Shown in pieces: positions 14,774 to 29,787 of a stretch of DNA of 38,790 nt (its first letter is position 1; the number at the start of each line of letters is the position of its first letter). A model generated the notes under the pieces. That model was not told where the DNA came from. It saw only the letters and a list, made by a program, of their open reading frames with translations, and did not search any database. Both the position numbers and the translations under genes were made by a program. The DNA lies in NCBI GenBank assembly GCA_945861435.1, contig CAMAUX010000054.1, positions 1-38,790 on the forward strand. Reading direction: 5' to 3'. The DNA is from Chthoniobacter flavus (GTDB lineage Bacteria; Verrucomicrobiota; Verrucomicrobiia; Chthoniobacterales; Chthoniobacteraceae).

Positions 14774-16453
14774 ATGGCGTCCCCTCTCCTAGGCTCTGTT
14801 CTGAGTGCAATTCGCGGCGTATTCCGCCGCAGAGATACGGACGCGAGCCCCGATTCTCTCAGCGCACTCGTCAACGGCTCCCCCGCGTTCCTGTTTCAAA
14901 TCAACCACAACGCCCAACTCGGACGACACGCGGTCGCATCGGCCGCACTCGCGGGAAGGGCGCCGGGCACGATCCTCCTGCGCGAGACCAGCGCTGTTTG
15001 GACTCCCACCGACGGCGGGATCACGTCCGTGTGCCACCACTGCGCCGCAGAGCTGGACAGTGCAGGTTCGCGACGCACTTCTTGTACAGGCTGCGATGGT
15101 CAGACCCACTACTGCTCGGCGAAGTGCCGCGACGCACATGCCCCCCTGCATTCACCCGTGTGTCGGCTGCACGCGAATGCACCAGTGCTGGCCGCGCGCC
15201 ACCACTGCCCCCAAAGCTTGGTACTCGCGCTCCTCGCACTCATCGCGAGACGCTGCCGCTCATTATCCCAACCCGCGGTGCACTCGCCTGCACAGGCACG
15301 CATACCCGCAGACCCGCTCACATTCGAAGCCGATCCCACCGCCTTCGCTCAGATGCATGGGGATCCACAGACCATCGACGCGGCAGCCCGGCGCTGCCTG
15401 CGCACCCTGGCCGACTCTTTGTGCGATGGTCTGCCGGAGGAACAGCGCCCCCCGTTCGATCTGTTCCTGAAATGGACCGCGCAGATCAACGCGAACTCGC
15501 ACGGCCTCCAGCGCGCCCACAAAACGCAGGAAGACTTCGGCCTCGGTCTCTTCCCGCTGAGCTCGCTCTTCAACCACTCCTGCATCCCAAACTGCACTTA
15601 CACCAATGAGGGTGCACAGATGGTGCTGCGACTCCTGCGCACCGTGGATGAGGGTGAGGAGCTTTGCGTCAATTACGTCGAACTCTACGCCGCACGCGAC
15701 GAACGCCGGGCTGAGTTGAAGGCAGGCAAGCGCTTTGAATGCCGGTGTCCCCGCTGCACCCACTCGCCACGCAACGCCGCAGAGACGCGCCTCCTCCAAT
15801 CCGAGCTTTTCGTGTCGGGCGTCCTCTGCGATCAGACCCCCGGATGCACCGGCCTGCTACGCGAGTGCAACGTGCACACCGACCGTGTGGGCGACCGCTC
15901 CGCGCAATGGGCATGCACCGCCTGCAACGCCCGCTGCACCTACGGTTCCATCGCGGACACCCACCTCACCCCCCTCCGCAACAGCCTCCAGTCAGCCACG
16001 ACCCTTTACTCCGAGGGATTGACCATCGCTTCCGCACCACGCATCCGGGCCGCCTTCGAAGCGGTGCTCAAAGAGGCACTCGTCCGACTCCCTCCATCCC
16101 ACGCGATCGTCTTTCACTGTCATCTGCCACTGATCAACTGCTGCTCCACGCTCGGCGACTATGAGGCAATGGCAACCCATGCACGCGCGGTCGTTGCATT
16201 GGCGGATGCCACACTGCCCCGCCACCTCCCTGTCGCCAATTACCTCGCCGCTCTGGCCAAGGCATTGGAATTGAGTGCAAACATGCGTCCCCCCCTCCCG
16301 CACGCTCTCCGCCGCCAACACGCGACCGAGGCCTGTGCCGCATGGGAGCGCGCCCTGGAAATCTACGAGGTCTGCCTCGGTGCGAAACATCCACAGACCG
16401 CCCGCACCCGTGCCCAACTCCTCAAAGCGCAGGCGGCCGCGAAGTCGCTTTGA
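14774..16453 (+). CDS. SMYD-like protein: split SET methyltransferase domain with MYND zinc finger and TPR-like tail
   Basis: The 559-residue product follows the order of eukaryotic SMYD lysine methyltransferases. Residues 45-75 match the N-terminal SET strand (LGRHAVASAALAGRAPGTIL). A MYND zinc finger interrupts the SET domain with Cys87, Cys90, Cys104, Cys107, Cys114, Cys118, His126 and Cys130. The SET core follows: GLGLFPLSSLFNHSCIPNC (about 256-274) with the cofactor-binding NHSC, then GEELCVNYVEL with the expected catalytic Tyr301, then the post-SET zinc cluster FECRCPRC (321-328). Further paired cysteines occur at about 352-388. The C-terminus is helical and ends in a TPR-like unit (ALEIYEVCLGAKHPQTARTR), as in SMYD proteins. 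All key residues appear intact, so activity on protein lysines using S-adenosylmethionine is plausible; the target is unknown. The 215 bases upstream (14559-14773) hold nothing I can identify. Base composition looks like that of its neighbours, so any transfer is not recent. Confidence 0.88.
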   Translation: MASPLLGSVLSAIRGVFRRRDTDASPDSLSALVNGSPAFLFQINHNAQLGRHAVASAALAGRAPGTILLRETSAVWTPTDGGITSVCHHCAAELDSAGSRRTSCTGCDGQTHYCSAKCRDAHAPLHSPVCRLHANAPVLAARHHCPQSLVLALLALIARRCRSLSQPAVHSPAQARIPADPLTFEADPTAFAQMHGDPQTIDAAARRCLRTLADSLCDGLPEEQRPPFDLFLKWTAQINANSHGLQRAHKTQEDFGLGLFPLSSLFNHSCIPNCTYTNEGAQMVLRLLRTVDEGEELCVNYVELYAARDERRAELKAGKRFECRCPRCTHSPRNAAETRLLQSELFVSGVLCDQTPGCTGLLRECNVHTDRVGDRSAQWACTACNARCTYGSIADTHLTPLRNSLQSATTLYSEGLTIASAPRIRAAFEAVLKEALVRLPPSHAIVFHCHLPLINCCSTLGDYEAMATHARAVVALADATLPRHLPVANYLAALAKALELSANMRPPLPHALRRQHATEACAAWERALEIYEVCLGAKHPQTARTRAQLLKAQAAAKSL

Positions 16454-16507: not shown

Positions 16508-17272
16508 TCACGCTCCACCGAGCCATTGGGTGAGAAAGTGGAACAGCCACAGGTGCGCAGGATAGAAGCCATAAAACAGGTAGCGCAAATCGCGCCCCCT
16601 GCGCCCGTTGTACAGGTTGAGGAGAGGAAGCGAGAGGATGCACCCGAGGTTGATCAAGTTGATCAACCCATAGGACGGATCTCCCGTCCGCGCGCTGACC
16701 AGCGCGAACACGCCGCTGTTCACCAGAAGCAGTGCACCCATCACCACCGCAGTGCTTCCGGGGCGTCCGCGCGTGAGGTGAAATACAAACACCATCCAGA
16801 CTCCAAGATGCCACCAATCCAGAGTGAGAAAGATGCCTGCCGCACCCGCCGCCATCACGACTGCACTCACAAGCCATAGAGACCGGATCCGATCCGTGGC
16901 CCAGATCAACAGCGCCCCCGCAAGAAGATCGAAAAACACATTGAGCCCATGCGGGAAGACAAGGTGGTAAAACGGCTGGCTCACCACGGCGAAGACCAGA
17001 AGACGCGACAGGTAACGCCCGAGATGACGCGTTTGATGGTACCCCTCCACCAGCAGGAACGCGAACACCGGCATCGCGAACCGCCCCACCACCCGCATCC
17101 ACAGCGCTTCGGGAAAAACGAGGGCTCCGAGGTGGTCCACCACCATCGCCGCGATAGCGATGAGCTTCAGCGTGAACCCATCCAACCCCGCCCCGCCCTC
17201 TGCACTTTGGACACTGGGCGCCAAACGGGTTCTTTTGGAATGCGGTCGCGTCATCTTTGGGTTTCCGGGCAA
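16508..17272 (-). CDS. TraX-family integral membrane protein
   Basis: The 254-residue product is a polytopic membrane protein of the TraX family. TraX of the F plasmid is needed for N-terminal acetylation of F pilin; most chromosomal homologues have no known substrate but are distantly related to membrane acyltransferases. Family hallmarks are GFTLKLIAIAAMVVDHLGAL, with a conserved Asp-His pair in the first membrane segment, and VGRFAMPVFAFLLVEGYHQTR. About seven to eight hydrophobic segments follow. ATG 17254 (MTRPHSKR) is an alternative start 18 bases downstream. The first ~30 residues are basic and cytoplasmic. No conjugation or pilus genes are nearby, so a role in plasmid transfer is unlikely here. 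It converges on the SMYD-like gene with a 54-base gap. Confidence 0.85.
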   Translation of the reverse strand: MPGNPKMTRPHSKRTRLAPSVQSAEGGAGLDGFTLKLIAIAAMVVDHLGALVFPEALWMRVVGRFAMPVFAFLLVEGYHQTRHLGRYLSRLLVFAVVSQPFYHLVFPHGLNVFFDLLAGALLIWATDRIRSLWLVSAVVMAAGAAGIFLTLDWWHLGVWMVFVFHLTRGRPGSTAVVMGALLLVNSGVFALVSARTGDPSYGLINLINLGCILSLPLLNLYNGRRGRDLRYLFYGFYPAHLWLFHFLTQWLGGA

Positions 17273-19224: not shown

Positions 19225-22200
19225 CTACGGCAGCGTATTAAAGGGCACGTTCAGCAGCAGCACGGACTGGTTGGCATCCATGAAAATCACACGCACGGCA
19301 AACTTCCCATCCCCACGCGTGCTATGCCCCTGACTGGCACAGCCCGGCGCCGCTGACAGGACGGTGAACGAGCGCACCGTGCGCACCGTTCCGTCGAGAT
19401 CGATTTTATCTCCCTCACGCAGCAAAAGCTGCACGTCGCCGGCAGCATCCTGCACCCAGAAGCCGATGTCATTCGCCGTGGTCACCGAGTCGGCACCCCG
19501 CTGAAGTGTGGCCACAAAGGCAGGCCCCAGCCTCGCGTCGCCCTCGCTCCACGCCATCGAACGAATCGCCGCAAACTTCGCCCCGCCTGCCCCGGGAGCC
19601 ACTCCGCCCTCGCGTGCCAGCAGGCTCAAATCGCCCTCCTTTTCAACGCGCAGCAAACCGGTCTTTCCCGGTGGCAACAGCACACCCGCGCCCTCGCCCG
19701 CCAGTGCGGTACCCAGAAAAGCGACTGCACCGTCGGGTCCTGGTACGGGATCGCCTATCGCGCCCAACGGCGCCCCGTCCTGCTCCACCAACGTCACTCC
19801 TTTGCGAGCGCGGAGTCCGAGCGTCAACTGCTCGCCCTCGCCCGTGATTTCGATGATCACCGAGTCATTGCCGGCATCGAGTGCCAAGTCAGGCGGCGTG
19901 GTGAAGACACTGTCGCGATCCAGACGCGCAAGAAACACGACGCTTCCGTCCTCGCGCAGCGTGGGCAGGCTGAAGGACTTGATCGAGGCGCCACCGAGAA
20001 TCTCCAACGGTGCACCACTCTGAACCAGCAACTCGAGGCCCGCGCCCACGAACTTCACCAGCGCGCAGCTGCCGTCTTCAAATCCCACACGCGCCACGAT
20101 GACACCGCTCGAGTTGTAGCCGCGCCTCTGATCCAACGTACCCTGCAGCGAAGCAAACAGCGCAATCGAACGCACCACCCGGTCGTCGCCCTCAACCACC
20201 GAAAGCGTGTCCCCCTGGCTCAGCAATTCCGTGAGCGTGAGAGTGCCGTCTTCGGCCTGACGCTGACGCCAAAGCGAGACCAACTCAGGATCCGGCTGCG
20301 CATCGGGATCCTCGGAGACCACGGTCAAGGGAGCGGTGAAGACCAGATCACCGTTGTCTGCGAGCACGAGTTCGGAAACTCCCCCCAGATACAAACCCTC
20401 GTGATCCGGCACTTCCATCCTGCTGCGGAATACCAGTCCCAGAACTCCATTGCGACGCACCCACAGACCCGCCTCCGGTTCGTCCGATTCAAGGGTCGCC
20501 GTGAAGGCCACGTTCCCGGAGTTGTTCACCACCGGCACGCCAAAAAACTGGAACGGGAACGCGGCGCCTGGCGCCTGCGCGCCCTGACGCGCCACCACCT
20601 CGGTGCCTGCATAAATCACACGCCTGCGCAGGTTGGCCGCATCAGCCACGATTCCACCGAACGCCACCCCACCCACATAGGCCGAGGGCACACCAAAGCT
20701 CACGAACTTCGCACCGGGGAAGTCCGAACCGACCAAGCCGCCGGCACTCCGGAAGTCGGAGGAATCCAAGCTGAGTGCGGCCGTCGCGTTCACACGAACC
20801 CCACCCACAGGAATGGAAGTACCGAGATTCCCCTGAAGGTCGCGGAACTTCAGCACCACCTTGTAGGCACCGGTTGGAAGTGCGACCGCGCTTGAAAACA
20901 CGCCGCTCGCGAGCGGTGCCGCCGGGTCGAATCCGATCCGGTGTGGCCCCTCCCCGTTGAACCCGCTGCTGAGCACCATCGTGTAAACCGCCCCATTCGT
21001 GCCTGTGAAGGTCAGGGTCACACTCCCTGCCATCGCAGCTTCGGGCAGAGAGAAGGAAACCTGCAGCGGCTTCCCCGCCCCAGCCCGCACATGGCTCACA
21101 CTGAGGGTGGGCGCATCGGCAAAACCGTCCACGGTCACACGCGAGGCCGATGCAAGGGCGTCCGCGTTGCCGAGCAAATCCCGGTAACTGAGCACCACCG
21201 AATACACGCCATCGGGAATGGCGACCCCCGAAGCCACCTTCTCACTCGAAGTGGGATCCGCAAGATCGAGGGTGAAGCCGTGGGAACCGGCCGCACACTC
21301 CGTGTCCGCAAGAACCAACACCCGGTTAATTCCCCCAGCAGAAAACACCAACCGCAGGCTCCCGGGTTGCGCGACCTCCGGCAGCGAGTATTCGACCTGC
21401 ATGGACGTGCCCGAAGAACTCCCAACCGCCGGCCGCACAAGCGTGGGCGGGAGCGTCTTCGTGTCGATCCTGAACCCCGTGGCGGTCGGCGCCGACGAAG
21501 CCACGTTGGCCGCGTTGATGTAGCTCAGCGTCACCGCATACACCCCGTCCGGAATCGGCACCCCGCCCAAGACCGCCGCACTACCCACCTCCGGATTGGA
21601 GGGGTCAAACGAGAATCGGTGGCTTCCCGCACTGCGCTCGGAGTCGGCCAACTGCAGAACCCGCGGCGTCGTACCGTCCGAAAACGAGAGTTTCACGCTG
21701 CCTGCCTTCGCTGCTGCAGGGAGGCTGAACTGCACATTCACGGGCGCCTTCGAGACCGTGTTTTTCGCAGGACTGGCCAGTGTCGCTACCGGGAAGTTCA
21801 AGGTGACACCGCTCTTGGTCGTCACCGCCTCCGGATTACCCACCGCGTCCTGATACGTCACCCCAAACGTGTAGACGCCGGCGGGAATGGGATCGCCACT
21901 CGCCACTTCCGAACTCTTGGTCGGATCCAGCGGATCCAAAACGAACGTGTGCGCACCCGCGGTCTCCTGGCTAGCCGCCAGACGCAGCAGGCGGAGCGTG
22001 ACCCCATCGAAGAACCCAATTCCCACCGTTCCCGGCGCGGCAGCCTCAGGAAGGCTGAAGGAGATCGTGATGGTCGGATTATAGGTCCTGTTCGCCACCG
22101 GACTGGAAATGACCGGCGGCGCAGTCGCCCCATCCACCACCACGTTGCTTGCGACCGCACTCTCGAAAGTTGCCCCGGACGAGTCCTTATAAAAGAGCTT

Positions 22201-25200
22201 CACCGCGTAAGTGCCGTTGGGAAGCGACGTCCCTCCGGCCACCGAGGCGACCGCACCACCGATCGTCGGCGCGGCCGGCGAAAACGAGAAGCTGTGCATT
22301 CCGGCGGACTGTTGGCCCGCGCTCAGGGTCAGCGTGCGCACCACGGTCCCGGCCTTGAACTCCAGCTTCACACTTCCCGCCTGCGCGGTCTGCGGCAACA
22401 CGAAGGAGACCACCGCGTTGGCCGTCAGCACCGCGTTGCTCACAGGACCCGCAAGAATCGGTTTGGTGACAAGCGGAGGCACTGCCCGGAAAACGCTTTT
22501 GGCCAAGGCGTTGGTCACATAGAGCGTTCCGTCGGATTGTACCGCCACTCCCACGGGTCCCGAAAACCGAGCCTGCTGGCCCAACCCCCCGGTGTTCCCG
22601 GACTGAAACTGCATTCCACCAATCGTGCTGACCTCACCAAAGGCAGTGATCTTGTGAATGGTGCAGGCGGTATAATCCGCCACGTACAGGTTCCCCAAGG
22701 TGTCGAGCGCCATGCCAGCGATGCTCACCAATCCCGACTGCGTACCGCTGGATCCCTGCGTGTTCAGGGTCGCCACGGCGCCACCGGAAATCTTCCTGAT
22801 CACCCCGCTCGCCTCACCCACGAACACCGTCGCGCCCGCTTCATCCACGGCGATCCCGACGGGCAGTCCAAAGCGGGCCGAGAGCGCCGGCCCATCCAAG
22901 ATTGCCTCCGCCCCAACCACCCCTGCGAGCGTGGTCACGACTCCATCCACGCTCACCTTGCGGACCACGAAGTTTCCGGAATCCGCCACGTACACATTCC
23001 CAGCGCCATCCACCGCGATACCGGTGGGTTGGTTGAAGCTCGCCGTCAGAGCAGGCCCGTTCGTGCTGCCAGCCGTTCCGGAACCCGCAAGCGTGGACAC
23101 CTCCGGCGTCGTGCCCATCGTGATCTTCCGGATCTTGTGCGTGACGATGTCCGTCACATAGAGATTCCCCGCCCGGTCGATCGCGACCCAGCCAGGAGCC
23201 TGAAAACGCGCCTGCGCCAAGGAGCCGTCCTCATCGCCGGGCTTGTCCAGACCGCCCACCAACGTCGTCACCTCCCCCGTCCGACTGATCTTGCGGATCG
23301 CATGATTATCGGTGTCCGCCACATACAGGTTGCCATTGGAGTCCACCGCCGCCCCTTGGGGAAATCCGAAGCGCGCTTCCGCACCTGAACCGTCCGCATT
23401 TCCCCCCTGCGCGGACCCACCCGCGTAAGTGTCCACCGTGAGACCCGCACCCGTGTTCGTCCCACCACCAGTTCCTCCGCCAGTTCCCGTTGTGAAATTG
23501 ATCGTGCTCTGTGCACTCGCCAAGAACACCCCATCGCTCACCAACGTTTTGAGGGGCTGGCCCGCCGCGCTGCCCTGCCCCCCTTGGTAGGTGACGTTCC
23601 CCGGGGTCGTGAAGTACGCGTTCAGCGCCGAAGCCGTTCCGGCAAACGTTCGCACCGTCGACGTCCCACCCACGGTGACTCCGACGGCTGGCACCCCGTT
23701 GAGAACCCCAGCGTCCACGCTCAACGTCACGGTCAGGTTGCTGCTGTCGACATCGGCAAAAGGTGTCCCAATGTAAGTCAGACTGCCCGCCACTCCCTCG
23801 GAGACCGTGAAAGAAATCGGCGCCGCCACCGTCGGGGCGTCGTTCACCCACGCAAGGTTGATCGTCACCGTGGCCACGTCGGACGACAGCGAACCGTCGG
23901 AAGCCGTCACCGTGAAAGTCTTCGGCCCGTTGTCATTCGGGGCCGGTTCGTAAGTGAAGCCCCCCCCTGAGGAACCCGAATCAGCGGCCAGCGCCGCAAT
24001 CTCAGTCACGCTCAGTGCCCGCGAGTAAATCAGCACCTCGTCGATCAGGCCGTCGAAGTAGTCGTCGCCATAGGTCTTGCCAATCCCGAAATTCAGGGCC
24101 TGTACGTTCGCGCCGGAAACGCTGTCGAAGGCCGTCTTTTGCCCATTGAAGTGGATCGCCCGCTCGGAGCCGTTGTAAGTAGCGACCACGTGATACCAGG
24201 TCTGTGGCGACATCGTGGCCACTGCTGCGGAGAGGTCGTTGTCCCACCAATAGTTGAGTAACAGCCCGTCGCCATTCAGGCGAAACGCATTCACTTGGTT
24301 GCTTCCGCCATAAGCGCCCCAGCCAATGAATCCTTTGGATCCAAAAGACCTCGCCTTGAACCACAGCGCTACGGAGTAATTGCTGTCGCCAACCGGCAGG
24401 TTGTCGATCGTCCCCGAAATCGCGGAGAGTAATGACGCTCCGTCAAAATCAACCGCTCCCCCGCTCTTCCCGTTCGCACTCCAAGTGGCGCCGCCCGAGT
24501 TGCTGAGGGCCGCGCCGGTGACCGAGTTTTTCCCGAGATCATCGGCGGAATCAAACGACCAGCGGCCGATCAGGCCTTGGATAGGAACCTTGTTCAGATT
24601 GCTCAAGGGGATGACCTGCCCCGGAGACAACGCCACGCCATTCAGCTTCAGCGTTCCCGTCCCCGGGAGCGTCACAACGGTGATGCTCTCCAGCGCCCTG
24701 TTCCCGGCATTGGAGTAAGCCGTGGCGAAATGAACGGCCGTAAAGTTGAGCGGCGTGTCTTCCGTGCCATTCAACGCGATAGGGGCCAGCGCCGGCGCGT
24801 TGTTCCCTCCTGTGAAATTGATCGTGCTCGTTGCACTCGCCGAGAGCGATCCATCGCTCACCGTTGTCGTAAGCATCCGACTCCCCGTGCCGTTCAACGC
24901 GCTCTGGTAGGTGATCCTCCCCGGCTTCGTAAAATACGCGTTCAAGTCCGCCACCGTCCCGAAGAAAGTCGGCGCGGCAACCGTGCCGCCCACCGTGATG
25001 CCGCTGCCCTCGCCCCCGGTGATCGTCCCCTCCCCCGCGATGAGGGTCACCATCAGGCTCGCATTGTCGACGTCCGTGAAGGGCGCTCCGTTGTAAACGA
25101 GATCCCCCATCCCAACCGCGCTCAAGAAAAAGGAGGCGGGCGCAACCACCATCGGCGCGTCGTTCGCCGCCGTGACGGACACGTTCAAGGCCTTCTGTGT

Positions 25201-28200
25201 GACCACCAAACCATCACTCATCGTCACGATGAAGCCGTCGCCTCCATTCACGCGCAACGCGTTGATCCCCTGTGCGTCCGGCGTGAAAGTGTAAGCCCCA
25301 GTCGCCACGTTTACCGACAGCGTTCCAAAGGGCCCGGTCTGCGACACCACGCCGCCTGCCTCCGTCACCAACCTGCCCAGGATGGGGCCGCTGGGATCGA
25401 AGGCCACCCCTCCATTGTTGGCGACGGTGTGGTTGAACCCACTCGAATCCACCAGCAACTGGGCTGCAGACGCGGCCCGTAGCAGCAGGACGGTTCCCGG
25501 CACTACCGCCAACTCACCACTCGGCGGCGCGAAGTTCGCCATGTAAATCGCCCCACCTTTGATCATCCGAAAGTTCGAGATCTTTCCCTCCAGGTCGTAA
25601 CCCTCATAACTTTGAAGGCGCCCGAGACACGGACTTCCCTTCGTGATGTTCTGAGGCCGATCCCCGCTGACCACCGCAACCCCGTTCACAAAGATGGTGA
25701 TCACCCCCGCACGCCGCACCACCGCGTAATGCGCCCACTGGTTGGCCCATGCCAGATCAAACGGGCACCCAAGGTCGTTCGTGTATCCATCGATGCGGAC
25801 CTTCAGGACCCCTGAGTCACAAAAGAACGCGAAGCTGCCGGCGCTGTTCACGTCACCGCCCGAATCATAAAACGTGAAGAACCCGCCAGCCCTCACATAT
25901 CCCCATGTCTCCATCGTGAAGTCGCCGGTTCCAAACCGGAACTCATCCCCATCGGCCACGGTGAGGCTCTTTCCCGTCCTGCTGCCAAAATCCAAGCTCC
26001 CGGCGGGGAAGGCTCCCTTGATGCCGTAGGTCAGCGTGCCTCCCGTCCCCAGGACAGTACCTGCCACCGTACCCGTCACGGTCGCAAACGTCTCCGCCGC
26101 GCTCGTATCCGTGTAGGTCAGGATGATCGGTTCAGTCCCACCCGTCGTTCCTCCTGTCGTCCCCTCGATCAAGGTCAGCGTCCCGCCTACCGTCCCGCCG
26201 CTCAAGGTCAACGTCCCAGCGTTTGCGCTCGCCGTCGCACCCGTGAAGTTCAGCGTCCCAGCGGACACACCCATCTGCCCACCACTAGAACTCAGCGAGC
26301 CACCGGACAGAGTGAGCGTCCCACTCGTTGTCCCCGTTGTTCCATTGGTCAGACTCAACGTCCCGCCCGATACGCTCAAGGTCGACCCGAGCACTGTCAG
26401 ACTCCCACTCGCCACACTATACATTCCGCCGGATCCTCCCGCCAACTGCAGCGTCCCGCCCGAAAAAGGAGCGGGCGACAAATTCAAAGTCCCGCCGCTC
26501 ACAACGCCAACAGTCTGCGTGCCGACATTGGTCCCGATCGTTGCGGTGTTCTGCACCAGCGTCCCATCGGTTGTCCCCGTCGTTCCTCCACTCAAGGTCA
26601 GCGTCCCACCAGTCGTTCCCGTTGTTACTCCCGTCTGGACGAGCGTGCCTCCATTGCTGCCAATTGTTGCGCCGCTCAAGCTGAGCGTTCCGCTCGTCGT
26701 CCCACCGGTCACAGTCAGCATCCCGCCGCTCGTGCTTGTCGCCCCCCCACTCAAACTCAACGTCCCGCCCGACACACTGAAAACCCCACCGCTCCCAATT
26801 GCCGTCCCCCCAGTCCCACCGCTTAACGTCAACGTGCCAGTCGACACCGTCAGCGTCCCGCCTCCCGGTCCGCTGCTGTAGGTTCCAGCCGAAACATTCA
26901 GAGTCCCGCCCCCGCTCAAAGCAAACGTGCCTCCGGACACGTTCAGCGTCCCGCCACTCCCAAGATTCGTCCCCCCAACCAAAGTCAGAGCCCCGCCAGA
27001 GAAACTCGCATCCGCCAAACTGAAGGTCCCGCTCGTGGTGCCGGTTGATCCAGTATTCAAAGTGAGCGTTCCGCCTGCAATTGCCGTCCCGCCCGTACCT
27101 ACCCCGCCGCCCCCCACTGTCAGCGTACCACCTCCGTTTCCACTGCCATCCGAGGGCCGGATTCTGCGAATGCAAAAGTTGAGCGGGTCACTCACATAGA
27201 TTCCCGCCATTCCGGCCACGCCCACCAAAGCGATTCCCGCAGGCCCTCTGAACTTGGCGGATGATGCGGCCCCGTCTGCATAGCCCTCGCCGGCACCCGC
27301 AACGGTGAAGACACCACTTCCTTGTTTGATCACGCGAACCGCCTGATTTCCTGAGTCCGCCACGTACACCGAGCCAACCGCGTCCACGGCGATCCCGCGG
27401 GGTGCATTGAAGCTTCCGGGAACCCCGTCGGAGAAGCCCGCCGAGCCGGGCGTCCCTGCCAAGGGAGTCAGATTCTGCGTGACCAAATCCACCTTGCGCA
27501 CCGTGTGCTGCCCCTCCTCGACGACAAACAGGGTGCTCCCCGCACACGCCAGCGCACTCGGGTTGCTGAGCCTGCCCACACCCAAAGGTCCGCTGTCCAC
27601 ACCGGAGGCCCCCTCCACTCCTGCAATGATACTGTCCTGTCCACCCGCGCTCAGCCTGCGGATGGTGTGGTTGCCCGTGTCGGCAACGTAAAGTGCACCA
27701 TCCGCCCCCACCGCGATGCCCTTGGGGCCGTTGAATCCACGGGGCGATGCCGTACTGGTAACGGAGTTCCCAAGCACGCCCCCGACCGTCGTGACCACAC
27801 CCGCTGGGGAAATCTTCCGGATGGCATGGTTGCCCGTGTCCGCCACCAACACATTGCCCTCCAGATCCAGCGCCAGCGCCGTGGGATCCTTGAACAAACC
27901 CGACGTCGCACCTGAAATGGTGTAGTTGCCTGAAAACGCAGCGCTCGTGGCGGCGGAGATGATGAACGTCTTTGAATCCACCACGGAAATCACCACCGTC
28001 CCAGTCGGCACCCCCGCACCCGCCAGCGTCATGCCACTGCGCAGCCCGATGTTCTCAGCCGTATCCGACGCCGATGCGAGCGTCACCCTCGTCGATCCCG
28101 CAGACGCGCTCATCGCAAAGCTCGCCACGAGGGAAACCGAATTCTCGGCTCCCCGCACACCGGACCTCCCCGCAAGAGTCGACACCTGCCCCGCCACTGA

Positions 28201-29787
28201 AACCCTTCGCACGGTCTGATTATCGAGGAGGTAGAGGTTCCCCTGCCCATCAGCACACAAGGCACCCGGTTCCACAAAGCGCGCCATGCGCAATTCGCCG
28301 TCCTGTGTGCCCTGACCTCCGCCGCTCCCAGCGAGCGGAAACCAGTTGTAAAAACCCGTGGTATTGATGGCCGGCCCCGGCTCCCCGATGCTGATGCTGT
28401 GTGCCGCACGATTGGCCACAAGAATCCTGCCGTCATGCAGACGCACGATCCCCGTCGGTTCGTTGAACTTGGAAGCCGCCCCCACCCCATCCACCGTCCC
28501 AGCCATCCCCGCCTGACCTCCCACGGTGCTCACTGCCCCGGACATGGTCACCCGCCTCACCAATTGATTCCCGCGATCGCTCACCAGCAAATCCCCATTG
28601 GCGTCGCCCACCAACGCCACCGGTTGGTTGAAGCGCGCAACCGTCGCCGCACCGTCCCCACTGCCCACCTGCAACGCCGTGCCTGCGAGACGGTCCACCC
28701 GCGTCGCCACACCCGAAACCACCGTGATCTTGCGAATCAACTGATTGCCCGTGTCCGCCACATACACGTTGCCCGCTGCGTCCACCCAGAGCCCCTGCGG
28801 CGCATTGAACTTTGCCGCCGAGACCGCCCCGTCCGCACTCCCGGCGCTGTTGGGGATTCCGGCAAACAGCGTCACCGATCCCGCTGCGTCGACCCTCCGG
28901 ATCACATGATTGCCCGTATCCGCGACGTACAGCGCATTGTCGATCCCAAGCGCCACCCCAGCCGGCGTGTTGAAGCGCGCCACATTCCCCATTCCGTTCA
29001 CATACCCAGACACGGTGGCCTTGCCCGCAATCGTCACCACCCCGCCCTGAGGAGTGACCCGCCGGATCGTATGGTTGCCGGTGTCGGCCACATAAAGGCT
29101 GCCAGTTCGGTCCGCGGTCAATGCACGCGGAGCGTTGAACTGCGCCTCGGCCGCGTTCACCACCGTGCCCGTGAAGCTGTATGCGCCGCTCGCAGCGACG
29201 GTCAGCGCGCTGGAGAGCGTGAGCGTGTTCCCGTTCACCGCCACGACCTTCGTGCCTGCCACCACCCCACGCCCGCTCACCAACATACCGGGAAAAATTC
29301 CCAACTGCGACGGGTTGGCCGCCGCCGGAAGCGTGAGCGTGCTCCCTCCCAATGCCCCCGTTGGATTCATGGAAACCACCGTGGTCAACGAATCCCCCGC
29401 CCCAACTGCTCCCACAGTGCCTGCGTAAACAAACACGGAGCCGTCCGCAGACAGTTTCCGGATCACATGGTTGAGCGTGTCAGCAACAAACACGACGCCG
29501 TTGGGATCGGCCGCCATCCCGGAAGGCCCGTTGAAGCGCACGGCGCTGCCCACCCCGTCCTGGAAACCCGCATTGCCAGAACTGCCCGCAAAGTTGGCGC
29601 GCCACGCCACGCCCTGCGCCCCCTGACCAAAAACCACCGCAGCGGACACCAGCAGCATCCACAACCACATCCCTCTCATCCCCGGCACCCTCAAGCGGGG
29701 CAAATCCCAGTTCATAAAACTCAGCCTGCGCGGCCCTTTTTGTGTGCGGGTAGCAGGACGTCGGAAACTCGACTTTTGGAATATCAT
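19225..29787 (-). CDS. Giant secreted multidomain repeat protein (NHL, LamG, cadherin/VCBS-like, Ig-like repeats)
   Basis: The frame encodes 3520 residues. A signal peptide (MWLWMLLVSAAVVFGQGAQG) begins about 40 residues in; the real start may be MNWDLPRLRV at 29715. Going from the N-terminus there are twelve NHL beta-propeller repeats (29680-27150, pattern GLAVDxxGNLYVADTGNHxIRK); a Gly/Thr/Ser-rich stretch (27150-26135); a VCBS-like domain split by a LamG domain (about 25995-25480); a cadherin-like domain; another cadherin-like domain split by a second LamG (24585-24000, GRWSFDSADD to LIYSRALSVTEIAAL); six further NHL repeats (23430-22470); five Ig/FN3-like repeats of about 112 residues (22470-20780); and a C-terminal beta-rich region with NNSGNVAF-type repeats. 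Such proteins are surface or extracellular adhesins or sensors. No PEP-CTERM or sortase motif is visible at the C-terminus. Binding partners cannot be predicted. The gene is intact throughout. Confidence 0.9.
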   Translation of the reverse strand: MIFQKSSFRRPATRTQKGPRRLSFMNWDLPRLRVPGMRGMWLWMLLVSAAVVFGQGAQGVAWRANFAGSSGNAGFQDGVGSAVRFNGPSGMAADPNGVVFVADTLNHVIRKLSADGSVFVYAGTVGAVGAGDSLTTVVSMNPTGALGGSTLTLPAAANPSQLGIFPGMLVSGRGVVAGTKVVAVNGNTLTLSSALTVAASGAYSFTGTVVNAAEAQFNAPRALTADRTGSLYVADTGNHTIRRVTPQGGVVTIAGKATVSGYVNGMGNVARFNTPAGVALGIDNALYVADTGNHVIRRVDAAGSVTLFAGIPNSAGSADGAVSAAKFNAPQGLWVDAAGNVYVADTGNQLIRKITVVSGVATRVDRLAGTALQVGSGDGAATVARFNQPVALVGDANGDLLVSDRGNQLVRRVTMSGAVSTVGGQAGMAGTVDGVGAASKFNEPTGIVRLHDGRILVANRAAHSISIGEPGPAINTTGFYNWFPLAGSGGGQGTQDGELRMARFVEPGALCADGQGNLYLLDNQTVRRVSVAGQVSTLAGRSGVRGAENSVSLVASFAMSASAGSTRVTLASASDTAENIGLRSGMTLAGAGVPTGTVVISVVDSKTFIISAATSAAFSGNYTISGATSGLFKDPTALALDLEGNVLVADTGNHAIRKISPAGVVTTVGGVLGNSVTSTASPRGFNGPKGIAVGADGALYVADTGNHTIRRLSAGGQDSIIAGVEGASGVDSGPLGVGRLSNPSALACAGSTLFVVEEGQHTVRKVDLVTQNLTPLAGTPGSAGFSDGVPGSFNAPRGIAVDAVGSVYVADSGNQAVRVIKQGSGVFTVAGAGEGYADGAASSAKFRGPAGIALVGVAGMAGIYVSDPLNFCIRRIRPSDGSGNGGGTLTVGGGGVGTGGTAIAGGTLTLNTGSTGTTSGTFSLADASFSGGALTLVGGTNLGSGGTLNVSGGTFALSGGGTLNVSAGTYSSGPGGGTLTVSTGTLTLSGGTGGTAIGSGGVFSVSGGTLSLSGGATSTSGGMLTVTGGTTSGTLSLSGATIGSNGGTLVQTGVTTGTTGGTLTLSGGTTGTTDGTLVQNTATIGTNVGTQTVGVVSGGTLNLSPAPFSGGTLQLAGGSGGMYSVASGSLTVLGSTLSVSGGTLSLTNGTTGTTSGTLTLSGGSLSSSGGQMGVSAGTLNFTGATASANAGTLTLSGGTVGGTLTLIEGTTGGTTGGTEPIILTYTDTSAAETFATVTGTVAGTVLGTGGTLTYGIKGAFPAGSLDFGSRTGKSLTVADGDEFRFGTGDFTMETWGYVRAGGFFTFYDSGGDVNSAGSFAFFCDSGVLKVRIDGYTNDLGCPFDLAWANQWAHYAVVRRAGVITIFVNGVAVVSGDRPQNITKGSPCLGRLQSYEGYDLEGKISNFRMIKGGAIYMANFAPPSGELAVVPGTVLLLRAASAAQLLVDSSGFNHTVANNGGVAFDPSGPILGRLVTEAGGVVSQTGPFGTLSVNVATGAYTFTPDAQGINALRVNGGDGFIVTMSDGLVVTQKALNVSVTAANDAPMVVAPASFFLSAVGMGDLVYNGAPFTDVDNASLMVTLIAGEGTITGGEGSGITVGGTVAAPTFFGTVADLNAYFTKPGRITYQSALNGTGSRMLTTTVSDGSLSASATSTINFTGGNNAPALAPIALNGTEDTPLNFTAVHFATAYSNAGNRALESITVVTLPGTGTLKLNGVALSPGQVIPLSNLNKVPIQGLIGRWSFDSADDLGKNSVTGAALSNSGGATWSANGKSGGAVDFDGASLLSAISGTIDNLPVGDSNYSVALWFKARSFGSKGFIGWGAYGGSNQVNAFRLNGDGLLLNYWWDNDLSAAVATMSPQTWYHVVATYNGSERAIHFNGQKTAFDSVSGANVQALNFGIGKTYGDDYFDGLIDEVLIYSRALSVTEIAALAADSGSSGGGFTYEPAPNDNGPKTFTVTASDGSLSSDVATVTINLAWVNDAPTVAAPISFTVSEGVAGSLTYIGTPFADVDSSNLTVTLSVDAGVLNGVPAVGVTVGGTSTVRTFAGTASALNAYFTTPGNVTYQGGQGSAAGQPLKTLVSDGVFLASAQSTINFTTGTGGGTGGGTNTGAGLTVDTYAGGSAQGGNADGSGAEARFGFPQGAAVDSNGNLYVADTDNHAIRKISRTGEVTTLVGGLDKPGDEDGSLAQARFQAPGWVAIDRAGNLYVTDIVTHKIRKITMGTTPEVSTLAGSGTAGSTNGPALTASFNQPTGIAVDGAGNVYVADSGNFVVRKVSVDGVVTTLAGVVGAEAILDGPALSARFGLPVGIAVDEAGATVFVGEASGVIRKISGGAVATLNTQGSSGTQSGLVSIAGMALDTLGNLYVADYTACTIHKITAFGEVSTIGGMQFQSGNTGGLGQQARFSGPVGVAVQSDGTLYVTNALAKSVFRAVPPLVTKPILAGPVSNAVLTANAVVSFVLPQTAQAGSVKLEFKAGTVVRTLTLSAGQQSAGMHSFSFSPAAPTIGGAVASVAGGTSLPNGTYAVKLFYKDSSGATFESAVASNVVVDGATAPPVISSPVANRTYNPTITISFSLPEAAAPGTVGIGFFDGVTLRLLRLAASQETAGAHTFVLDPLDPTKSSEVASGDPIPAGVYTFGVTYQDAVGNPEAVTTKSGVTLNFPVATLASPAKNTVSKAPVNVQFSLPAAAKAGSVKLSFSDGTTPRVLQLADSERSAGSHRFSFDPSNPEVGSAAVLGGVPIPDGVYAVTLSYINAANVASSAPTATGFRIDTKTLPPTLVRPAVGSSSGTSMQVEYSLPEVAQPGSLRLVFSAGGINRVLVLADTECAAGSHGFTLDLADPTSSEKVASGVAIPDGVYSVVLSYRDLLGNADALASASRVTVDGFADAPTLSVSHVRAGAGKPLQVSFSLPEAAMAGSVTLTFTGTNGAVYTMVLSSGFNGEGPHRIGFDPAAPLASGVFSSAVALPTGAYKVVLKFRDLQGNLGTSIPVGGVRVNATAALSLDSSDFRSAGGLVGSDFPGAKFVSFGVPSAYVGGVAFGGIVADAANLRRRVIYAGTEVVARQGAQAPGAAFPFQFFGVPVVNNSGNVAFTATLESDEPEAGLWVRRNGVLGLVFRSRMEVPDHEGLYLGGVSELVLADNGDLVFTAPLTVVSEDPDAQPDPELVSLWRQRQAEDGTLTLTELLSQGDTLSVVEGDDRVVRSIALFASLQGTLDQRRGYNSSGVIVARVGFEDGSCALVKFVGAGLELLVQSGAPLEILGGASIKSFSLPTLREDGSVVFLARLDRDSVFTTPPDLALDAGNDSVIIEITGEGEQLTLGLRARKGVTLVEQDGAPLGAIGDPVPGPDGAVAFLGTALAGEGAGVLLPPGKTGLLRVEKEGDLSLLAREGGVAPGAGGAKFAAIRSMAWSEGDARLGPAFVATLQRGADSVTTANDIGFWVQDAAGDVQLLLREGDKIDLDGTVRTVRSFTVLSAAPGCASQGHSTRGDGKFAVRVIFMDANQSVLLLNVPFNTLP
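20780..22470 (-). repeat. Five tandem Ig/FN3-like protein repeats of about 112 residues
   Basis: Five units share the pattern: a Pro-rich opening, F(S/V)LPxxAxxGSVxLxF, xxLxLxxxxxxAGxHxFxxDPxxP, a GxxIPDGVYxVxLxYxD block and a short V.VDG linker. Visible anchors include VVSFVLPQTAQAGSVKLEF, ISFSLPEAAAPGTVGIGFF, VQFSLPAAAKAGSVKLSF and VSFSLPEAAMAGSVTLTF. The units have diverged enough to be stable at DNA level. Confidence 0.7.
26135..27150 (-). repeat. Coding Gly/Thr/Ser repeat block within the giant protein
   Basis: About 340 residues built from irregular GGTLTLSGG-type units (GGTLNVSGGTF, GGTLSLSGGAT, TTGTTGGTLTLSGG), almost free of Lys, Arg, Cys and Trp. The alternation of beta-prone TLTLS with GG turns suggests a beta-helix or a stalk. 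It sits exactly between the first NHL propeller and the first VCBS/LamG part, as a spacer would. The opposite strand is open as a Pro/Val-rich frame purely as a consequence of this composition. Confidence 0.8.

Follow-up and report, generated by a model that had tools for sequence, protein, structure and literature searches.

A complete SMYD-type SET-MYND gene in Chthoniobacter flavus, probably of eukaryotic origin and spread among Verrucomicrobiota with ubiquitin-Ig and TraX genes

The stretch of Chthoniobacter flavus DNA considered here (contig CAMAUX010000054.1 of assembly GCA_945861435.1, positions 1 to 38,790, hereafter the window) harbors a gene for a complete SET-MYND protein of the SMYD type. 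At the level of its sequence, this is a true SMYD gene of bacteria, divergent and found in an unusual context. It probably came from a eukaryote and has since passed horizontally among the Verrucomicrobiota, together with genes for a TraX-type acetylase and for a ubiquitin domain joined to an immunoglobulin-like (Ig-like) domain, referred to below as ubiquitin-Ig, and its product would act as a lysine methyltransferase. SMYD genes are described as present in all eukaryotes, and the paper on their evolution that says so makes no mention of bacteria (PMC4521844); a review of bacterial SET proteins likewise makes no mention of MYND or SMYD (PMC3980110). A complete bacterial SMYD that is selected, mobile and linked to an exported ubiquitin would indicate that bacteria are able to adopt an entire modifying enzyme of eukaryotes, and the ubiquitin linkage suggests a small eukaryote-derived toolkit.

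The initial annotation of the window had ascribed to this gene the full SMYD architecture, comprising a split SET domain, a MYND finger with seven cysteines and one histidine, the NHSCIPNC and GEELCVNY motifs, post-SET cysteines and a TPR-like C-terminus. All of these are borne out, and are laid out along the gene as follows.

14774..16453, + strand: SMYD-type SET-MYND gene, 559 amino acids from an ATG start; PDB and Pfam matches, alignment, tree and Foldseek
14774..14884, + strand: N-terminal extension, residues 1-37, not in SMYD1-3; predicted amphipathic helix at 3-18
14885..15019, + strand: S-sequence, with which the split SET domain opens, residues 38-82; aligned with SMYD1-3 and 51 SET proteins of other loci
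15032..15163, + strand: MYND zinc finger, residues 87-130; six-frame profile search and ligand alignment
15170..15538, + strand: SET-I insertion, residues 133-255, including N241-S242-H243, where H243 aligns with SMYD3 Phe183
15539..15688, + strand: core SET, residues 256-305, with NHSCIPNC, GEELCVNY and the catalytic Tyr301; Pfam and alignment
15689..15763, + strand: post-SET zinc cluster C323-x-C325-x2-C328; K319 occupies the position of SMYD3 Tyr257
15806..15949, + strand: second cysteine cluster C352/C358...C381/C384, a putative zinc ribbon, not in SMYD1-3 and invariant in relatives
15950..16450, + strand: TPR-like C-terminal domain, residues 393-559; Pfam, alignment, predicted structure and Foldseek

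The start codon is backed by the conserved N-terminus among relatives. In the profile search that had been recommended, SET lies above the Pfam cut-off (E 8e-9) and TPR_12 just below it (E 1e-6), while MYND falls just short with hmmscan (19.5 bits against a cut-off of 22.7) and exceeds the cut-off in a six-frame search (25.2 bits, 15032-15163). No NCBIfam model was found for the protein. When searched with phmmer against all PDB chains, the protein matches SMYD3 (E 1e-21), SMYD2 (4e-12) and SMYD1 (7e-10), and the best non-SMYD SET protein follows at E 0.03. Alignment to reference sequences of SMYD1, 2 and 3, which were confirmed against PDB chains beforehand, is collinear from residue 38 to the C-terminus. 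The MYND ligands C87, C90, C104, C107, C114, C118, H126 and C130 match those of the animal proteins one to one, as do the post-SET cysteines C270, C323, C325 and C328, and both sets are invariant among the bacterial relatives. Tyr301 corresponds to the catalytic Tyr239 of SMYD3, Asn267-His268 and Phe321 are also matched, and the C-terminal I-x-V-x-x-G-x-x-H motif is common to all. The protein thus has the extended SET-I insertion, the zinc cluster after SET and the MYND-split SET domain of the SMYD family, along with the TPR-like C-terminal domain of SMYD1-4. A chance match to SMYD is excluded by these comparisons.

The differences from the animal lysine methyltransferases SMYD1-3, several of which go beyond the initial annotation, are also clear. 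Identity is 18-24%; the bacterial protein starts with 37 residues that the animal enzymes lack, its MYND loop is longer, an extra Cys4 cluster follows the post-SET region, and the lysine channel is altered. Ordinary bacterial SET proteins, including those of the Chlamydia NUE type, share the core SET domain with NHSCxPNC, the tyrosine and a CxCx2C-like post-SET region; in contrast, they are mostly 140-220 residues long and lack the MYND, SET-I and TPR elements.

A phylogeny with bacterial SET proteins had been proposed as a check on the annotation. SMYD1-3 and four bacterial SMYDs split from 36 SET proteins of other loci with support of 100/99, and a long branch carries the bacterial SMYD clade, which lies next to and outside the available eukaryotic sequences; these are the three animal paralogs SMYD1-3 without SMYD4, SMYD5 or plant, fungal and protist sequences. 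Structure prediction, also suggested at the outset, points the same way. An AlphaFold2 model built from a four-ortholog alignment was poor (predicted local distance difference test score, pLDDT, 45), and the addition of 51 SET proteins of other loci raised this to 70.9, with a predicted template-modeling score (pTM) of 0.47. With Foldseek, the best matches to the second model are SMYD1-3 and Toxoplasma AKMT, and VIA-align gives Z scores of 14-17 for SMYD chains over residues 36-559, albeit with large root-mean-square deviations of 6-9 A. AKMT, a SMYD-like apical methyltransferase, matches across most of the model (E 1e-10); in contrast to the protein described here it comes from a eukaryotic parasite, and its sequence is not among the significant PDB matches. 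The Arabidopsis ASHR1 sequence aligns with a similar extra cysteine cluster and a histidine at the Phe183 position, which we treat solely as a lead towards a plant- or protist-like donor and not as evidence.

Among bacteria, the gene is rare and patchy. Full-length SMYD is found in 3 of 388 Verrucomicrobiota genomes, namely the window genome, G319 and G192, and in 4 of 384 genomes of the class; ordinary SET proteins are widespread in the phylum. We take G192 to be Verrucomicrobia bacterium IMCC26134, a complete single-contig genome (CP011265) whose defined gene complement can be combed for substrates. Besides the window copy, five further full-length bacterial copies were found: those of G319, IMCC26134, G645, G863, which belongs to the same order as the window genome, and a 4.3-kb contig of a metagenome-assembled genome (CAIRBI010000319.1). 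The last is labelled Gammaproteobacteria but carries the verrucomicrobial block, and is probably misbinned. At the level of genus, family and order, all 56 relatives examined lack the gene, and no SMYD was found in the plasmid, phage and viral collections searched. A scan of 85,000 species otherwise gave short SET matches without MYND among the matches listed, and other bacterial SMYDs may exist beyond these. A SMYD-like SET fragment also occurs in another genome of the G319 genus (L130/L141, G663:C27), on a contig of 46% G+C within an unusually large 9.4-Mb genome; this contig is probably a eukaryotic contaminant.

This distribution, together with the separation from bacterial SET proteins in the tree, favors the earlier proposal that the gene was acquired from a eukaryote, and a eukaryotic origin is likely, with the reservation that SMYD1-3 alone represent eukaryotes in that tree. 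The proposal of an old acquisition was half right, as copies later passed from one verrucomicrobial lineage to another, in some cases recently. The observation behind it, a composition like that of neighboring genes, was correct: G+C content at third codon positions is 0.736, and codon log-probability lies inside the range of other window genes. SMYD copies from different verrucomicrobial families share 69-89% protein identity with synonymous divergence (dS) of about 0.3-0.7, whereas rpoB gives 1.7-1.9. Between G319 and IMCC26134, SMYD has a dS of 0.50 against 1.7 for rpoB, and the protein is actually better conserved than RNA polymerase (73% against 66% for rpoB). Nucleotide similarity ends at the borders of the ubiquitin-SMYD-TraX block, and in the gene tree G863 groups with G319, G645 and the metagenomic contig, which represent other families. 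Because of the low SMYD dS, the block-limited similarity and the placement of G863, we conclude that the block moved between verrucomicrobial lineages. The window copy is further removed, at 56-59% identity and a dS of about 1.3 from the other bacterial SMYDs.

That the gene has been kept, as had been asserted, is evident from the ratio of nonsynonymous to synonymous substitution (dN/dS) among the five closer bacterial copies. The SET core (residues 256-330) is the most constrained part at 0.13, from which we conclude that the gene is maintained under purifying selection; most other parts lie at 0.29-0.38, and the N-terminal extension evolves fastest at 0.50.

The block itself is defined by two neighbors, which the initial annotation had not noted. 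In five of the six loci, a ubiquitin-Ig gene lies directly upstream of SMYD on the same strand, with a gap of 38-71 bp (about 66-71 in four, and similar in G863, where the start was set by homology). Its product begins with a signal-peptide-like segment and combines an Ig-like domain with a ubiquitin domain that, over 72 residues, is 72-89% identical to the human protein. Since the ubiquitin lacks a terminal Gly-Gly and continues into further sequence, it would not be conjugatable in the usual way. Lys6 and Lys27 are the only ones of the seven classical ubiquitin lysines kept in all copies. Tandem ubiquitin-Ig pairs occur in G319 and IMCC26134 (L014:14383-16000 and L015:11975-13757), and that of IMCC26134, at 86% identity and a dS of 0.17, stems from a duplication or conversion of fairly recent date. 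A near-eukaryotic ubiquitin is likewise exported by Bacteroides fragilis: this protein, BfUbb, has a signal sequence, lacks a terminal Gly-Gly and blocks ubiquitination in vitro (PMC3352274). In contrast to BfUbb, the ubiquitin described here is fused to an Ig-like domain and directly precedes a SMYD gene.

The second neighbor, convergent with SMYD, is found downstream in five of the six loci, and in G863 it is not within the available stretch. The window keeps this SMYD-TraX pair.

16508..17272, - strand: TraX-family membrane acetylase gene, convergent with SMYD; Pfam TraX E 3e-37; part of the shared block

TraX was considered as a native neighbor and rejected, as it is missing from the 56 relatives just like SMYD. 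A joint acquisition of the two genes fits, because both are absent from all examined relatives of the window genome. The ubiquitin of the window genome is encoded on another contig (G000:C18:46604-46813, L017), where it has a signal-peptide-like start, is 92% identical to human ubiquitin across 72 residues and extends into a long C-terminal region that includes an FGE-sulfatase domain. All three SMYD genomes of the phylum set have ubiquitin, compared with 14 of 388 genomes overall (hypergeometric p 4e-5, uncorrected for relatedness). Near-eukaryotic ubiquitin domains are patchy in the phylum (L018-L033), in frames of 171 to 2675 residues, mostly without SMYD.

With respect to function, the protein would act in the cytoplasm as a protein lysine methyltransferase dependent on S-adenosylmethionine, with the SET lobe and the TPR-like domain holding the substrate between them; no signal peptide was recognized on it by eye. 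It is quite probably an active lysine methyltransferase. Its substrate would most likely be found among bacterial proteins and not in host chromatin. Of single candidates, the ubiquitin-Ig preprotein is the strongest; it would be methylated ahead of export, possibly at Lys6 or Lys27, although we hold this assignment to be doubtful. Slightly more tentative still is the notion that the whole forms one system, a mobile eukaryote-derived cassette of exported, non-conjugatable ubiquitin-Ig, TraX and a SMYD that methylates ubiquitin-Ig or another bacterial protein.

Several observations weigh against this view of the function. The ubiquitin-Ig proteins are exported, so that methylation would need to come before export, and the lack of a ubiquitin gene beside the window SMYD weakens any obligate pairing. 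In the structural model, the MYND and active-site stretches are poorly predicted (pLDDT below 50), and pTM is 0.47; given those stretches and the large deviations, the model supports the overall fold and not fine geometry. In SMYD1-3, the lysine channel contains one phenylalanine and a pair of conserved tyrosines (PMC4307310). This Tyr-Tyr-Phe arrangement of the animal subgroup is not present in any of the six bacterial copies. Two of the three aromatics, which we take to be SMYD3 Phe183 and Tyr257, are replaced by His243 and Lys319 in all six, with Tyr301 kept, so the substrate or even the chemistry may differ. It is therefore conceivable that the SMYD fold has been retained for methylation of another residue or as a binding scaffold, and the differences at SMYD3 Asn16 and Asn132 could be read in the same way, though these also differ in SMYD1-2. 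However, no copy departs from the catalytic tyrosine, NHSC, the zinc ligands or the phenylalanine that precedes the post-SET cysteines, and constraint is strongest in the SET core, which makes such a loss of lysine methylation unlikely.

Equally improbable, it appears, is a role as a translocated effector of the kind exemplified by Chlamydia NUE and Legionella RomA, with histones or other proteins in a eukaryotic host or grazer as its methylation targets. Bacterial SET effectors are known (PMC3980110, PMC2904774, PMC10653858), and a eukaryotic-type enzyme adjoining an exported near-eukaryotic ubiquitin resembles host mimicry; the inhibitory exported ubiquitin of B. fragilis is a further argument (PMC3352274). 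However, the FlhA/SctV family (FHIPEP), which flagella and type III systems share and which was the one export component looked for, is missing from three of five SMYD genomes (G319, G645 and the complete G192); it is present in the window genome and G863, where the two kinds of system were not distinguished. The carriers are also not known to be associated with a host. The position of the bacterial clade beside the eukaryotic sequences, and the abundance of ordinary SET proteins in Verrucomicrobiota, could also be explained if the architecture were ancestral to or independently assembled in bacteria, from which eukaryotes received SMYD. Against this stand the great rarity of bacterial SMYDs compared with their described presence in all eukaryotes (PMC4521844) and the narrow eukaryotic sampling of the tree, and we consider this direction of transfer very unlikely. 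Eukaryotic contamination or an assembly artefact has a negligible probability: although draft genomes in the set do hold apparent eukaryotic contigs, as in G663, the gene occurs in six separate assemblies that share synteny, lacks introns and follows the codon use of its host, and its presence in the complete IMCC26134 genome refutes contamination.

Elsewhere in the window, positions 19225-29787 on the - strand encode a 3520-residue protein with NHL repeats and laminin-G-like and Ig domains.
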